From Armatimonadota bacterium (GTDB lineage Bacteria > Armatimonadota > Armatimonadia > Armatimonadales > Capsulimonadaceae): a stretch of DNA of 43,305 nt. A model generated the notes under the pieces. That model saw nothing but the letters and a program-made list of their open reading frames with translations. It was not told where the DNA came from and ran no database searches. This document shows positions 3,395-17,943 of the stretch, piece after piece (the first letter of the stretch is position 1; every line of letters starts with the position of its first letter). The position numbers and the translations under genes were made by a program. Location: contig JANXMY010000187.1 of assembly GCA_025354405.1 (NCBI GenBank), positions 1-43,305 of the forward strand. The letters run 5' to 3'.

Positions 3395-3580
3395 ATGGAC
3401 AAAACAAACTCAGATCCGGGAGGGCGGAGGCGCGGGCGGGTTCCGTCAGAAGCCGAGCGCATCAAAACCACACTGCTGCTGGATTTGGATACGGTGGAAT
3501 GGGGAAAGCGCCAGCCGGGCGGCCTGTCCGAGATTATTCGGCAGCTTTTGCGGGAGAAGTACGAATCGGATCGTTCATAG
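3395..3580 (+). CDS. Small ribbon-helix-helix-like regulator
   Basis: A 61-residue protein with a basic N-terminus (GRRRGR), then a short strand (KTTLLLDLD) followed by two helices (SEIIRQLLREKY). This layout resembles Arc/CopG-type ribbon-helix-helix proteins, but it is too short for a firm family call. The ATG coincides with the predicted transcription start, so translation would be leaderless. It probably represses its own promoter through the palindrome at 3369-3383 and may control the recombinase that begins 47 nt downstream. Confidence 0.6.
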   Translation: MDKTNSDPGGRRRGRVPSEAERIKTTLLLDLDTVEWGKRQPGGLSEIIRQLLREKYESDRS

Positions 3581-3596
3581 TTGACAGGGATGTCAA
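3581..3596. promoter_or_regulatory. Inverted repeat ahead of the recombinase gene
   Basis: TTGACAGGGATGTCAA is a perfect 6-bp inverted repeat with a 4-base centre. The left arm reads as a -35 box, but no good -10 box lies 16-18 bp on (3603-3609). It starts right after the TAG of the small regulator and lies 31 nt before the recombinase ATG. It is a plausible operator or weak hairpin. Confidence 0.45.
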
Positions 3597-3627
3597 TCCA
3601 ACAGGGAAAAACGGAAGGACTCGAACA

Positions 3628-5379
3628 ATGACCATTTCTACACTGACAACCCCTCGCATCCCCGGAGCGGTCATCTACACCCGCGTCAGCACGGGCGATC
3701 AAGACAAAAACGGGACCAGCCCGGAAACCCAGCTTGCCGCCTGCCGTCAGAAAGCAGCCGCGCTCGGTCTGCCGATTGTTGCCGAATATTACGACGGTGG
3801 CATTTCCGGCGGCTTTCTGCTGATGCGAACCGAGTTTCAAGCCGCCATCGCTGACATCCAGGCCGGTCGATCAAACACGCTCATCTGTCCAAACATCAGC
3901 CGCTACTCACGCGATATGGAGCATCAGCAGGCCGTCAAGAAAGCCGTCCGTGCGGCTGGGGGGCGGCTGGTTTTCTGCGACATGGACTTTGACGACACGC
4001 CCGAAGGTGACCTTGCATTCGGCATCATGGGCGGTTTCGCCCAGTACGAAAAGGCCGTGATCAAAGACCGCACCATGAAAGGCAAGCGCAAACGGGCCGA
4101 AGAAGGCCAGCAGCCACAGCGGAGCCGCTCACCCTACGGCTACCACATCGTCACCAATGCCGAAGTCATTACAGGCATACACCCGCCGGAGATGCGCGGG
4201 CGCTACTTAATCGCGGAAGAAACTGCCCCAGTTCTACGCCGCCTCTTCGCTGGCTACCATTCGGGCGAGTACAGTTTGTCCACCCTTTGCCTTGCACTCA
4301 ACAAAGAAGGCATTCCTACTCCTGCCCAGGGCCGCGCCTGGCGGGAAGCCACCGTGCGCGTCATTCTGATGAACCCTGTCTACAAAGGGGAGCCGGTCAG
4401 CGGACGGCAGACAGTCTCCACCGACGAGAGTCGTTTAGGGCAGCGTCATAAGCTGACCGGACGACTGATTATGACCCCTGAAGTGCGAAGCCTCGCGCCC
4501 CACAGCAAGCGACTAACCCTGTCCGCGCCTCCTCTGGTGACTGAAGATGTCTGGGACGCTGTGCAGGCGCGTCTTGCCAGGGGTCGGGCGGAAGGAAGCG
4601 GCAATCCGCGTCAGATACGAATGCTCTCCGGCCATGCCTTCTGCCCCGCATGTGGCGGCAAAGCCGGATTTAAGCAGCAGAAGGCTAACGGCAAGCGCTA
4701 TCGGTACTTCATTTGTAACGCTCACAAAGATGCCCGATATCAGTTCGGGAACTCCCCCTGCCAGGGCGACTTGTACCCCGTAGAAACAGTCGAGCAGGCT
4801 GTCCTGCAAGCCGTGCGCGACGCCTGGCAGAATCCTAATGCGATCCTCGCTGCCCTGAGCGCCTATGAAAACCCCACAGTTCGAGCGGTCATCGAAGACA
4901 CGGCAGAATTGAGAGCCATACTGAGTGAGCTGGAAGAATTGAGGAAGGAGGAACAAGCGACAGCCAAAGCTCAAGTCGCTGGGATTAGAGCCGGTGCAGA
5001 TCCATCAGTATACGCTTCCCTATTCGCCAACATCGCTGGCCGGAGAAAAGAACTGAACACCCTCCGAGCAACAGCAGAACGTCCGTCAAAGACCATGCCG
5101 CAGCTCAAGCAAAAGCCAGCAGCTAAGCAAGTGCCTTGGATCAAGACTGCCAACACGGAAAAGGCTCTGCAAGTATTTGAGCAAGCTTGGCGCGTCCTGA
5201 CCAGTGCAGCAATCGAAGACCACACAAAGCGGGATTTGCTGCTGACGGTCATCGACCGAGTGATCTGCAAAAAAGATGGTGCCGAAGTAATCTTCCTCCC
5301 CGGCATCTTTGGAGAAACCAGGGAGGTAGCGGAACCAACTCTTTATACCACCTGCATCGGCATCAGTACGCACAAATAG
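3628..5379 (+). CDS. Large serine recombinase (site-specific integrase)
   Basis: A 583-residue protein. The start at 3628 is preceded by GGAAGGA at 8 nt; the in-frame extension back to 3499 overlaps the small regulator and is rejected. The resolvase domain (about 13-160) has the catalytic serine S21 in YTRVSTGDQ and the NISRYSRD motif. The recombinase domain follows, with SPYGYHI near its start. A zinc ribbon has C339, C342, C363 and C378, and a coiled coil begins near residue 425. This is the standard architecture of phage and element integrases that join attP to attB. The final 12 codons lie antisense to the end of dnaN. No frameshift is seen. Confidence 0.93.
   Translation: MTISTLTTPRIPGAVIYTRVSTGDQDKNGTSPETQLAACRQKAAALGLPIVAEYYDGGISGGFLLMRTEFQAAIADIQAGRSNTLICPNISRYSRDMEHQQAVKKAVRAAGGRLVFCDMDFDDTPEGDLAFGIMGGFAQYEKAVIKDRTMKGKRKRAEEGQQPQRSRSPYGYHIVTNAEVITGIHPPEMRGRYLIAEETAPVLRRLFAGYHSGEYSLSTLCLALNKEGIPTPAQGRAWREATVRVILMNPVYKGEPVSGRQTVSTDESRLGQRHKLTGRLIMTPEVRSLAPHSKRLTLSAPPLVTEDVWDAVQARLARGRAEGSGNPRQIRMLSGHAFCPACGGKAGFKQQKANGKRYRYFICNAHKDARYQFGNSPCQGDLYPVETVEQAVLQAVRDAWQNPNAILAALSAYENPTVRAVIEDTAELRAILSELEELRKEEQATAKAQVAGIRAGADPSVYASLFANIAGRRKELNTLRATAERPSKTMPQLKQKPAAKQVPWIKTANTEKALQVFEQAWRVLTSAAIEDHTKRDLLLTVIDRVICKKDGAEVIFLPGIFGETREVAEPTLYTTCIGISTHK
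5343..5379. other. Overlap of recombinase and dnaN 3' ends; probable attachment site
   Basis: The last 37 bp of the recombinase gene are shared, in antisense, with the last codons of dnaN (DYLCVLMPMQVV). Large serine integrases usually lie right beside one attachment junction, so the crossover probably falls in or next to this stretch, with the element restoring a working dnaN end. No second copy of this sequence was found near 1-1600 by eye; such enzymes need only very short core identity. Confidence 0.5.
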
Positions 5380-6506
5380 TCTGACGTGTCCGTGGGCCGG
5401 ATCACCCCGGGCCGGAGGGGTTCGGTGAGCTCGATGTGGAGGCCTTCGGTGTCGAGGACGTTTAGGACGTCGGCCAGATACTTGGCGTTGAAGGCGATCT
5501 CGACGGGGGTATCGTCGCCGGTGCGGGCGACTTCGACTTCTTCGTAGGCATTGCCGACGCTGCCGCTTTCGGCGGTGATGGTCAGCTTGTCGCCATCCTC
5601 AGTGGTGCGCAGTACGACCCGGCTGGCGGAATCGCGGGCGACGATGGAGGCGCGTTTGACGGCCGCGGCCAGCGGTTCACGGGCGAGGGTCAGGGTGCGA
5701 GTGGCCTGGGCGGGGATGACGCGCTCGTAGTTTGGGAACTGACCGTCGATCAGCCGGGAGATGAGGGTGGTCTTGCTGCCCTTTTCGTCGTCGATCTGGA
5801 ACTGGATCTGGTTGCCGGAGAGCGTGACCACGACTTCACCCTCTTCATTGCCGACGATCCGCAGGACTTCGTGCATGGCGCGGGCCGGGACGATTGCGCT
5901 GGCGCTGCCGGTGCCTTCTTTAACGGCGCAATCCCGGACGGCTAGGCGGTGGGTATCGGTGGCAACCAGCTTCAGGCTGTCGCCCTGGAAGACGACGAGG
6001 ACGCCGGTCAGGATCGCGCGGGTCTCGTCCGTGGAAGTCGCGAAGATGGTCTGCTTGATAGCGTCTCGCAAGGTCAGACGGTCCATAACAAAGCGGGAGT
6101 CTTCCTTCACCTGCGGCAGCAGGGGGAACTCGTCCGCGCTGAGGCCAAGGAGCTTATAGTTTGCCTTGAGGCAGCGCAGGTGCAGGGTATTGGTTTCGTC
6201 TTCGACCGTGATCGAAACGTCGGCATCGGGCATAGCGGCCAGGAGCTCGGTGAAGTTGCGGGCGGGGGCGGTCGCGGCTCCATCTTCGGTGATGCCGACA
6301 CCGGGGAGGGTATGCTCCATCCACATTTCGAGGTCAGTCGCCATGATGGAGACCTTGCCATCTTTGGCCGCGATGCGGACATGCGTCAGGATCGGCAGCG
6401 ACGAGCGCGTGGCAACCGCTTTTCCGACCGTTTGCAGGCCCTCGAAGAGTTCTTTGCGCGGGCAGTTGGCCCGGAGCAGCCCGGGGATGATGGTTTTTGC
6501 AGCCAT
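5343..6506 (-). CDS. dnaN: DNA polymerase III sliding clamp (beta subunit)
   Basis: A 387-residue protein, close to the family's usual length, with the three-fold clamp repeat. Typical stretches include RSSLPILTHV, SADEFPLLP, KQTIFATSTDETRAILTGV, VATDTHRLAVR and a C-terminal YLCVLMPMQ. It forms the ring that tethers DNA polymerase to DNA. AAGGAG lies about 10 nt before the ATG. It is downstream of an ECF sigma factor and small anti-sigma-like gene (42-nt gap) rather than beside dnaA. Its last codons overlap the convergent recombinase, so the exact C-terminus may have been supplied by the inserted element. Confidence 0.95.
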   Translation of the reverse strand: MAAKTIIPGLLRANCPRKELFEGLQTVGKAVATRSSLPILTHVRIAAKDGKVSIMATDLEMWMEHTLPGVGITEDGAATAPARNFTELLAAMPDADVSITVEDETNTLHLRCLKANYKLLGLSADEFPLLPQVKEDSRFVMDRLTLRDAIKQTIFATSTDETRAILTGVLVVFQGDSLKLVATDTHRLAVRDCAVKEGTGSASAIVPARAMHEVLRIVGNEEGEVVVTLSGNQIQFQIDDEKGSKTTLISRLIDGQFPNYERVIPAQATRTLTLAREPLAAAVKRASIVARDSASRVVLRTTEDGDKLTITAESGSVGNAYEEVEVARTGDDTPVEIAFNAKYLADVLNVLDTEGLHIELTEPLRPGVIRPTDTSDYLCVLMPMQVV

Positions 6507-6548: not shown

Positions 6549-6818
6549 TTAACGGGTGTGAAAAATCTGTTCCGTTTGGCAATCCTGCGCGGCGGAATGC
6601 TCCCGCAGCAGGCGGTCGAGAGTACGCTCGACAAACCAGTCGTCAGGCTTGTCGGGCGTTAGGGCCTGGAGACGCTGCGCTGTCCGCTGGAGCGCGGCGG
6701 CTTCGGCGGCGCTCTCCGGGTGAGAAGCGAGAAAAGCCTCGGCAAAGCTGTGGAGTGCTTCGGGCAGCGTGCCTTCTACGTAGAGATCGATCAAGTCATC
6801 GCGTTCAGCTTCGGTCAT
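6549..6818 (-). CDS. Small acidic protein, putative anti-sigma partner
   Basis: An 89-residue protein beginning with ATG in an ATGA overlap with the sigma factor stop, so the two are translationally coupled. The N-terminal DDLIDLYVEGTLPEA...FLASHPES resembles the start of many anti-sigma factors, where a short helical domain contacts the sigma factor. It lacks the HxxxCxxC zinc motif and has no membrane segment. Position and N-terminal likeness support a cytoplasmic anti-sigma role; this is inference. Confidence 0.6.
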   Translation of the reverse strand: MTEAERDDLIDLYVEGTLPEALHSFAEAFLASHPESAAEAAALQRTAQRLQALTPDKPDDWFVERTLDRLLREHSAAQDCQTEQIFHTR

Positions 6819-7381
6819 ACGTCTTCTTTCTCCAGAGTTTCTAAGGCCGCTTTCAGAGCGCGGCGGGCCCGGCCGTGCAGCGACTTCGTGGCTGCGGGGG
6901 TACGTCCCAAGACGGCAGCGGCTTCAATCGACGTCAAGCCCTGCAGATCGCACAGGACCAGCACCAGATGGTGATCATCGGAGAGCGACGCCAGGGCTTC
7001 GTCGAGGTCGGAAACCAGGTCCGGCTCAGGCGAGAAGAGTACCCAGTCGCCCCGCCCCGTTTCGGTCAGCCCGGAGAGCGAAAGCGTCGGCAATCGAGGC
7101 TGCCGCAGTCGTTCCAGGCAAACGAGGCGGGCGATTCCCAGCAGCCAGGTCTTGAGTAGGCTTTCCCCGCGAAACCGGCCGGCCCGCAGGGCGCGAGACG
7201 CCCGAAGCCAGCATTCTGACGCGGCTTCCTCGGCATCTTCCCGTGTGGGCAGGAAGCGGCGGGCAAAGGCATAAGTCGCCCCGATATGGCGTCGAAACAG
7301 TGTTTCCAGGGCCAGGGCGTCATCGCCGGCTGCGCAGCGTGCTGCCAGCCGCTCATCATCGTCTCCATTATCCCATCTCAT
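6815..7381 (-). CDS. ECF-type RNA polymerase sigma factor
   Basis: A 188-residue protein. The sigma-2 region (about 20-85) has the pattern LFRRHIGATYAFARRFL..REDAEEAASECWLRA. The sigma-4 region (about 125-180) has LDEALASLSDDHHLVLVLCDLQGLTSIEAAAVLGRT with a helix-turn-helix. It directs RNA polymerase to a dedicated promoter set. It is first in a unit with its putative anti-sigma factor and dnaN. The divergent neighbour codes for a secreted Lys/Met-rich protein, a plausible target gene. The start has only a weak GGGA ribosome site. Confidence 0.88.
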   Translation of the reverse strand: MRWDNGDDDERLAARCAAGDDALALETLFRRHIGATYAFARRFLPTREDAEEAASECWLRASRALRAGRFRGESLLKTWLLGIARLVCLERLRQPRLPTLSLSGLTETGRGDWVLFSPEPDLVSDLDEALASLSDDHHLVLVLCDLQGLTSIEAAAVLGRTPAATKSLHGRARRALKAALETLEKEDV

Positions 7382-7451
7382 AAATCCCAGCTCATTTGTT
7401 GCGTGTCATTTTCTTTGTGTCATTCTCGAGGCCAAACGCGCCGCGCTAAGC

Positions 7452-7475
7452 AAAAATATTTTTCCGGGAACTTTT
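7452..7475 (+). promoter_or_regulatory. AT palindrome plus GGGAACTTT motif upstream of secreted-protein gene 1
   Basis: The palindrome AAAAATATTTTT (7452-7463) is followed by GGGAACTTTT (7466-7475), 87 nt before the ATG at 7563. GGAAC is typical of -35 boxes used by ECF sigma factors. A very similar arrangement precedes the paralogous gene at 8500. A matching -10 element could not be picked out. Confidence 0.45.
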
Positions 7476-7562
7476 CTCTTCCTTCTTTCGCTTCTTGGGA
7501 CCGTAAGACACACGCGCATCGTCGCCGTTACGAATTTGCTTCTGTTACGAAAGGGAAACTCG

Positions 7563-7877
7563 ATGAAATCATTTGCACGCCTCGCCGCCGCTCTGGGCCT
7601 CGCCGCTATGTTCGCCACTACCGCCGTGTTCGCACAGGCTCCGACAATGGGTAAAAAGAGCGCCGTCAAGGCTCATTCTTATGTGACCAAAAAAGGCACA
7701 GTTGTCCATGTCAAGGCGCATACCCGTATGATGCCGGCCAAGAAATCGACCGCAGTCAAAGGTTACACCCGCACCATGAAAAGCGGTAAAAAAGTCGCCG
7801 TCAAGGGCTACGCCCGCAAGGCTCCGATGAAGAGCATGAAGCCGATGATGAAGCCGACCATGAAGAAAACCATGTAG
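7563..7877 (+). CDS. Secreted Lys/Met-rich repeat protein 1
   Basis: A 104-residue protein. The start at 7563 has AAGGG just upstream; an earlier in-frame ATG at 7536 adds only MLLLRKGNS. Residues 1-24 are a signal peptide ending TAVFAQ. The mature protein is very basic, with loose repeats of the type VKGYTRTMKSGKKVAVKG and a tail of MKPMMKPTMKK units. It shares TTAVFAQAPTMGK with the protein at 8500-8730, so the two are paralogues. There is no catalytic motif. Lys/Met richness suggests binding of an anion, nucleic acid, cell-wall polymer or copper/silver ions, but none of these is shown. Confidence 0.75.
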   Translation: MKSFARLAAALGLAAMFATTAVFAQAPTMGKKSAVKAHSYVTKKGTVVHVKAHTRMMPAKKSTAVKGYTRTMKSGKKVAVKGYARKAPMKSMKPMMKPTMKKTM

Positions 7878-7897
7878 TCCGCACTCTAGTGTGACAC

Positions 7898-7933
7898 AAA
7901 AACGGCCCGGCGATGACTCGCCGGGCCGTTTTT
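7898..7933. terminator. Bidirectional rho-independent terminator
   Basis: ACGGCCCGGCG (7902-7912) pairs with CGCCGGGCCGT (7919-7929) across a six-base loop, flanked by A5 and T5 runs. It lies between the convergent genes ending at 7877 and 7959 and can serve both strands. Confidence 0.92.
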
Positions 7934-7958
7934 GCGTTTTTCCAGGGTTAAATCGGAC

Positions 7959-8339
7959 TTATTGAACTTTGCGCTCTTTTTCCACAATCACATTGAGCAA
8001 AGTCTCACCGCCGATTTTGCCTTCCGGGCGGACGGTGCCCTTCAGCCCCACTTTATCGCCTTCGCGGGGTGCTCCGGCCCGGCTCAGGACCCAAGCCTGC
8101 CCGGTGCCATCGCTGATCCGATAGGCGGCAATATCGGCGATTCCAAGAGGCAGCTCGTAGACTTTCGTGACTTCACCGGCGACAGTCACATCTTTATTCG
8201 CGAAAGACGCGGGTCTATTGGTGATATCTCGCAGCTTATCCATGTGTTCGTCGCACCCTGCCAGCAGGGCAGCGGCAAGCAATGGAAGGAATAGTCCAGC
8301 ACCCCATCGCTTGAAATTTTCTTTACGTGATACAGTCAT
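7959..8339 (-). CDS. Lipoprotein with OB-fold-like domain
   Basis: A 126-residue protein with a signal sequence ending in the lipobox LAGC (C29), so it should be lipid-anchored. The rest (about 40-120) has the pattern FANKDVTVAGEVTKVYELPLG..AYRISDGTGQAWV, then a KVGLKGTV strand, typical of small single OB-fold periplasmic proteins. AGAGGA lies about 8 nt before the ATG. It is convergent with secreted protein 1 and divergent from secreted protein 2. Ligand and role are unknown. Confidence 0.78.
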   Translation of the reverse strand: MTVSRKENFKRWGAGLFLPLLAAALLAGCDEHMDKLRDITNRPASFANKDVTVAGEVTKVYELPLGIADIAAYRISDGTGQAWVLSRAGAPREGDKVGLKGTVRPEGKIGGETLLNVIVEKERKVQ

Positions 8340-8405
8340 AGCTTGGTCCTCTTTCCCCGTATTTTATTTAACTTACGACGAGATCAAGCGGTGCTTGGTT
8401 CCCAG

Positions 8406-8443
8406 AAAATATTTTTTGAATATTTTACCAAAGAGGGAACTTT
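8406..8443 (+). promoter_or_regulatory. AT palindrome plus GGGAACTTT motif upstream of secreted-protein gene 2
   Basis: AAAATATTTT (8406-8415) and GGGAACTTT (8435-8443) lie 56 nt before the ATG at 8500, echoing the elements ahead of the paralogue at 7563. A second AATATTTT and a GTTCCC about 35 bp upstream (making an inverted pair with GGGAAC) are also present. Confidence 0.45.
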
Positions 8444-8499
8444 CCTGCCGTTCTGAACGCTGCTGTGCTTGAAATACACACCCAGGAGTTTTTAACTTA

Positions 8500-8730
8500 A
8501 TGAAGTTCAGCAAAGTCTTGATCGCCGCGGCAGTCGCCGCCATGGTCTCCACCACCGCCGTTTTCGCACAGGCACCCACCATGGGCAAGTCCACCATGAA
8601 ACCCACCATGGGCAAAAAGATGATGCACAAGCCGATGATGAAAAAGCCGATGATGCACAAGCCGATGGCCAAAAAAACCATGGGTAAAAGCACCATGATG
8701 CACAAACCGACGATGAAGAAAGCTATGTAG
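8500..8730 (+). CDS. Secreted Met/His/Lys-rich repeat protein 2
   Basis: A 76-residue protein with AGGAG 11 nt before the ATG. Residues 1-24 are a signal peptide (TTAVFAQ end). The mature 52 residues consist almost wholly of Met, Lys, His, Pro, Thr and Gly in repeats such as KKPMMHKPM and GKSTM. Met/His clusters are typical of periplasmic copper or silver binding proteins, while the high lysine content also suits polyanion binding. It is a paralogue of the protein at 7563-7877. Because of low complexity, similarity searches will be unreliable; the shared signal peptide and APTMGK junction are the best evidence of kinship. Confidence 0.75.
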   Translation: MKFSKVLIAAAVAAMVSTTAVFAQAPTMGKSTMKPTMGKKMMHKPMMKKPMMHKPMAKKTMGKSTMMHKPTMKKAM

Positions 8731-17592: not shown

Positions 17593-17892
17593 TTAGTGCG
17601 CGGTATGCGCTTTGATCTCGTGGCGGGTAATCGTTCCGGCACCGATCCCAGCGAGGGTCGGATGACGCTCCGCAAAGTTGAGTTTCCGGTGATGCATCTT
17701 GGCATTCTGCGCGGAAACTTTGAGTGCGTGATGCGTCGCTAGTCCTGCACCAATACCGGTCATAGTCGGATGACGCTGGATGAAGTTCGGCCGATGCGCC
17801 GGAGCAGCGGTCTGTGCGAAAGTCGCCGGAGCCAGCAGGGCCAGAGCGGCGGGTATCAGGGCCAACGCCCCTTTGCGTGTGCGAAGTATCAT
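17593..17892 (-). CDS. Secreted protein with twin RHPT-GIGAG motifs
   Basis: A 99-residue protein with a signal peptide (about 1-26, ending TFAQ). The mature part has two copies of a roughly 23-residue unit: NFIQRHPTMTGIGAGLATHH and NFAERHPTLAGIGAGTITRH, each followed by a short basic stretch. The Gly-x-Gly-x-Gly core could insert in or pack on a membrane like a glycine zipper. AGGAGG lies 10 nt before the ATG. No known family by my reading. It has its own terminator and is divergent from the glycosyltransferase gene. Confidence 0.78.
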   Translation of the reverse strand: MILRTRKGALALIPAALALLAPATFAQTAAPAHRPNFIQRHPTMTGIGAGLATHHALKVSAQNAKMHHRKLNFAERHPTLAGIGAGTITRHEIKAHTAH

Positions 17893-17943
17893 AGGTTTCG
17901 TTCCTCCTGAGTAGAAAGCGTTAGTGAGTACTGAAAAGTTCCA

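Follow-up and report, generated by a model that had tools for sequence, protein, structure and literature searches.

Two secreted basic repeat proteins at one locus

The window, a 43,305-nt stretch of an Armatimonadota contig, encodes two small exported proteins whose genes, here called genes 1 and 2, lie close together on the same strand (Table 1). As the original prediction had stated, the products are 104 and 76 residues long and have a common signal-peptide end, TTAVFAQAPTMGK, and both open reading frames were confirmed. The mature part of the gene 1 product is of low complexity, contains 28% Lys plus Arg and 13% Met, carries a net charge of +22 and repeats VKGYTR..SGK.V.VKGY, and that of the gene 2 product, likewise of low complexity, contains 27% Lys plus Arg and 29% Met, carries a net charge of +14 and repeats MKP/MHKPM; acidic residues are absent from both in this genome. 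The repeat make-up noted earlier therefore stands, except that the gene 1 product is less rich in Met than claimed. Neither product matches a Pfam or NCBIfam family above the curated cut-off. For the gene 1 product, beta-hairpin repeats are predicted at low confidence (pLDDT 65, pTM 0.24), and no meaningful match was found in the PDB, either by fold with this low-confidence model or by sequence.

The lipoprotein expected between the two genes is present, but its OB-fold match is weak and falls below the cut-off. An ECF sigma factor gene divergent from gene 1 was confirmed on the opposite strand, together with a putative anti-sigma gene, and we refer to this sigma factor as the neighbouring sigma. 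A dnaN-like gene (5343-6506, minus strand) comes after this pair, and a large serine-recombinase-like open reading frame (3499-5379, plus strand) lies just past the dnaN-like gene.

Table 1. Features in the window, with positions counted from its first nucleotide.
Feature	Position	Strand	Remarks
Putative anti-sigma of neighbouring sigma	6549..6818	-	89 aa; weak NCBIfam match, E 3.4e-4, far below cut-off
Neighbouring ECF sigma	6815..7381	-	Divergent from gene 1; Sigma70 r2 and r4 domains
A/T palindrome	7452..7463		Better assigned to the leader of the neighbouring sigma gene, as judged from a leader alignment of four genomes, including G002, where gene 1 is elsewhere
Gene 1 promoter, GGAACTT-N15-CGCT	7467..7492	+	11/11 motif bases; 0/400 shuffles
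Gene 1	7563..7877	+	Secreted basic repeat protein, 104 aa; ORF, ATG at 7563
Lipoprotein, OB-fold-like	7959..8339	-	126 aa; divergent from gene 2; Pfam OB E 0.054, below cut-off
Gene 2 promoter, GGAACTT-N15-CGCT	8436..8461	+	11/11 motif bases; 0/400 shuffles
Gene 2	8500..8730	+	Secreted Met/Lys-rich repeat protein, 76 aa; ORF
Third candidate target	17593..17892	-	Secreted His/Lys-rich protein, 99 aa, HPT...HH repeats; translation checked
Third promoter, GGAACTT-N15-CGCT	17917..17942	-	Exact match in whole-genome scan

The compared Armatimonadota genomes are numbered with a G (G000 holds the window and G001 is its congener). Of 251 genomes of the phylum, 6 have gene 1; the homologues in G001, G002 and G004 are joined by more distant ones in G003 and G020, and public Armatimonadetes MAG contigs carry homologues too. 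The congener has the same locus, with the neighbouring sigma gene divergent from gene 1 and a gene 2 homologue that is 86% identical; positional counterparts of gene 2 occur in G002 and G004, and the pairing of the lipoprotein gene with gene 2 is kept in all three. In G004, gene 1 stands beside the orthologous neighbouring sigma gene, and on another contig a Met/Lys/Gly repeat gene occupies the gene 2 position, divergent from the lipoprotein gene. In G002 the same module of gene 1, lipoprotein gene and gene 2 counterpart has no sigma gene alongside, the ortholog of the neighbouring sigma lying about 3.6 Mb away. A sigma neighbour at homologous loci thus held for G001 and G004 but not for G002.

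A bipartite promoter motif

Upstream of both genes we found GGGAACTTT, at 7466 for gene 1 and at 8435 for gene 2, and in both cases CGCT, overlooked in the original prediction, follows exactly 15 bases past GGAACTT. The proposal of GGAAC as an ECF -35 box was supported, the box being shared by both genes and extended by CGCT at this spacing, and as judged from its sequence GGAACTT-N15-CGCT is an ECF-type -35/-10 pair. The significance of the 11-base bipartite motif was assessed with 400 shuffles of each upstream region. Upstream of gene 1 the motif is complete in G000, G001, G002 and G004, which represent three genera, and is absent before the distant homologues in G003 and G020, so that the upstream motif anticipated at homologues elsewhere occurs at some of them only. 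Upstream of gene 2, G000 and G004 have the complete motif, G002 has 10 of its 11 bases and G001 has 9, a score equalled in 16 of 400 shuffles. Upstream of the lipoprotein gene there is no CGCT motif.

In a strict 13-base form, GGAACTTTT-N13-CGCT, the motif has 17 sites in seven genomes of the family against 0.5-1 expected, and 14 of these precede genes for an RseB-linked ECF sigma factor (five), small secreted proteins (four at gene 1, one at gene 2, two at the third window gene and one at a gene for a Lys/Ala-rich secreted protein) or a polysaccharide enzyme (one), leaving three unexplained. Conservation across targets is partly circular because most targets were found by the motif pattern, and most of the genomes are fragmented; the independent evidence comes from homologues identified through protein searches or through their position, among which the motif is present at 4 of 6 for gene 1 and, counting degraded copies, at 4 of 4 for gene 2.

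The third candidate target (Table 1) has homologues in 9 of 201 genomes and keeps the motif only in G000, G001 and G004. The HPT-repeat secreted family is widespread in the order, with paralogues (G000:C185:99178-99378, G002, G003, G005-G007), and its members and paralogues mostly lack the CGCT motif. On another contig of G000 (C126), a secreted Met/His-rich protein of 173 aa has the same promoter, as it does in G001. The polysaccharide enzyme combines GH18, polysaccharide deacetylase and GT2 domains, and its gene carries the motif in G001, G002, G006 and G029, and with one mismatch in G000.

Several candidates were set aside. A secreted protein of G001 (C36), Spy-like by our own reading only, was dropped as a target since its G000 ortholog lacks the motif. 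Single sites with one mismatch in G003, G005, G020 and G029 were discarded, as many fall within long open frames and a reversed-pattern control gave a similar number, most clearly in G029 and G020. A motif within an adenosine-deaminase-like gene (C102), also seen in G001 and G004, probably reflects coding conservation. As a separate observation, G000 (C164:626-651) and G001 (C73) share an identical GGAACTTTTTGTCCCGAAATCGCCCT flanked by a divergent ndk-like gene and a gene for a secreted YHS-domain protein; here the -10 position reads CCCT rather than CGCT.

The second element originally proposed, an A/T palindrome before both genes, fared less well: A/T tracts do lie upstream of both (7452-7463 and 8406-8415), but in G001, G002 and G004 no palindrome form precedes gene 1, and it is not conserved upstream of most homologues. 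Since most target promoters do not conserve it, it was rejected as a regulatory signature. An A-tract followed by CGCGRCRC..TTT occurs in the leader of the neighbouring sigma gene (7382-7463, minus strand), is conserved in four genomes including G002 and is perhaps the promoter of that gene. Because this leader has its own conserved element in four genomes, the palindrome before gene 1 seems, from the alignment, better assigned to it.

The candidate regulator

Contig C78 of G000, which is not that of the window, carries an ECF sigma gene (Pfam Sigma70_r2 1.5e-17, r4_2 6.1e-18) followed in its operon by a zf-HC2 anti-sigma gene (E 1.5e-6, above cut-off, with a hydrophobic segment visible in the sequence) and then by a gene for a MucB/RseB-like protein (MucB_RseB E 4.3e-5, just above cut-off). 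The motif lies upstream of this RseB-linked sigma gene itself in seven genomes of two families (G000-G005 and G029), that is, in 7 of 7 assigned by best match rather than by tree. In G029, which belongs to another family, a divergent second copy of the motif precedes the counterpart of the polysaccharide enzyme gene. In G002 and G006, the gene of a more distant ECF paralogue is preceded by GGAACTT-N15-CGTA; since the -35 box and spacing are unchanged and the -10 box differs, the latter plausibly separates the sigma paralogues (CGCT versus CGTA).

The neighbouring sigma had been proposed as the regulator, which would make the locus a local cassette of sigma factor, anti-sigma factor and targets. 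ECF sigma factors often control adjacent genes, and this one and gene 1 are divergently arranged in G000, G001 and G004. Against this, its upstream region lacks the CGCT motif, with 7-8 of 11 motif bases at chance level, and has a different conserved element instead; the G002 module retains the motif far from the neighbouring sigma's ortholog; and in seven genomes the motif is found in the promoter of another sigma gene, the RseB-linked one. In principle, one and the same -35 box could be recognised by both sigmas. We consider direct control by the neighbouring sigma improbable and regard it as quite likely that genes 1 and 2 would be controlled by the RseB-linked C78 sigma. An adjacent ECF sigma factor thus need not regulate its neighbours. 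Comparison across genomes supports and extends the original prediction of a small envelope regulon with ECF-type GGAAC promoters.

Our preferred explanation, to which we give a probability of about one half, is that genes 1 and 2 are effectors of a sigma-E-type envelope-stress regulon driven by the C78 sigma. The sigma factor would be held by its zf-HC2 membrane anti-sigma together with the periplasmic RseB-like protein and presumably released upon envelope damage, whereupon free sigma would transcribe its own operon and the scattered GGAACTT-N15-CGCT promoters. Among the products would be the GH18-deacetylase-GT2 enzyme as well as a number of small, highly basic repeat proteins that are secreted, and these proteins would most likely bind anionic surface polymers, so that the envelope is stabilised or shielded. 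We infer envelope damage as the inducing signal from the polysaccharide enzyme and the RseB-type operon, which both point there. What sequence comparison shows is the operon itself, the bipartite motif that the genes share and the conservation of this motif with its target genes.

Proposed polycationic effectors and known systems

All homologues of genes 1 and 2 contain at most 2% acidic residues and carry a net charge of +9 to +25, while their Met content spans 1-29% and their His content 0-12%. In G002 and G004, Met makes up 1-2% of the gene 1 homologues, and the gene 2 counterparts contain no His. Because Met and His vary while the charge stays, a role that depends on them is disfavoured. 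This leads us to favour a polycationic, envelope-binding role in stress over metal binding or MrpX-like Met scavenging, and polyanion binding, raised in the original prediction, would fit the conserved charge. Their probable co-expression with other small secreted proteins and with the polysaccharide enzyme suggests that a stressed cell coats or reinforces its surface. The comparison of genomes supports the regulon well, and the biochemical role is what we infer; electrostatic binding of anionic surface polymers, taken by itself, falls somewhat short of even odds.

Closest to the polycation reading, and itself a rather unlikely one, is that the proteins act as charge-driven, disordered periplasmic chaperones like Asr of E. 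coli (PMC10746267). Asr is stress-induced and periplasmic, and its layout of a signal peptide followed by a short, very basic, Lys-rich low-complexity mature part is also found here; our proteins differ from it in an ECF-type promoter, in the lack of any match to the Asr family in Pfam scans and in the VKGYTR repeats of gene 1, for which the model, at low confidence, predicts beta-hairpin repeats rather than pure disorder.

Less probable still is a role as methionine sinks that are sacrificed to hypochlorous acid, as with MrpX and BcrX, which are also ECF-controlled. An ECF sigma factor activates the operon of BcrX, a Met-rich MxKDx protein, and this operon contributes to HOCl resistance (PMC8315932); gene 2, with 29% Met and a weak TIGR02953 match (E 1.5e-4), resembles BcrX. 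This match scores 21.6 bits against a cut-off of 41, gene 1 has none, and the low Met content of gene 1 homologues in G002 and G004 speaks against scavenging, as does the lack of an MsrP-type gene with the motif, though the genome has PF00174 proteins. MsrPQ is not found at the locus, and the PF00174 genes, on other contigs, are not among the motif matches. Oxidant scavenging fits gene 2 of this genus, not the homologues.

The copper- or silver-binding role of SilE-like metal sinks, once suggested by Met/His motifs, is the least probable and goes unsupported, because the HKPM motifs of gene 2 in G000 and the Met/His-rich 173-aa protein with the same promoter are set against His/Met binding motifs not conserved among homologues (His absent from gene 2 counterparts and Met nearly absent from gene 1 homologues in G002 and G004) and the finding of no metal-transport gene with the motif.

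We know of no ECF regulon described with secreted polycationic mini-protein effectors, and none of the papers searched pairs Armatimonadetes with 'ECF sigma factor'. For a phylum with few cultured members, the present analysis offers an envelope-stress regulon that can be tested, with a defined promoter code, a candidate regulator operon and named targets, and if the polycation reading is true, secreted basic mini-proteins would be an added effector type of ECF envelope-stress sigma factors. More speculatively, and rather doubtfully, this may be a lineage-specific strategy in which a sigma-E-type regulator, rapidly diverging polycationic mini-proteins and a polysaccharide enzyme produce an electrostatic protein-polysaccharide coat.

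Besides Asr, two known systems come nearest. MrpX and BcrX, with their SigF/BcrS ECF sigma factors (TIGR02953, MxKDx), are likewise small exported repeat proteins, rich in Met and Lys, that are controlled by an ECF sigma factor, whereas the proteins described here have no Asp in their repeats, score below the TIGR02953 cut-off, do not conserve Met, are associated with a different type of anti-sigma factor and have no MsrPQ alongside. The RpoE-RseA-RseB system of Proteobacteria also places an ECF sigma factor, a zinc-finger anti-sigma factor and an RseB-domain protein in one operon, uses a GGAACTT -35 box and has its sigma gene preceded by its own motif; here, in contrast, the -10 box is CGCT, the host belongs to the Armatimonadota, and the candidate targets are small basic secreted proteins and a polysaccharide enzyme.
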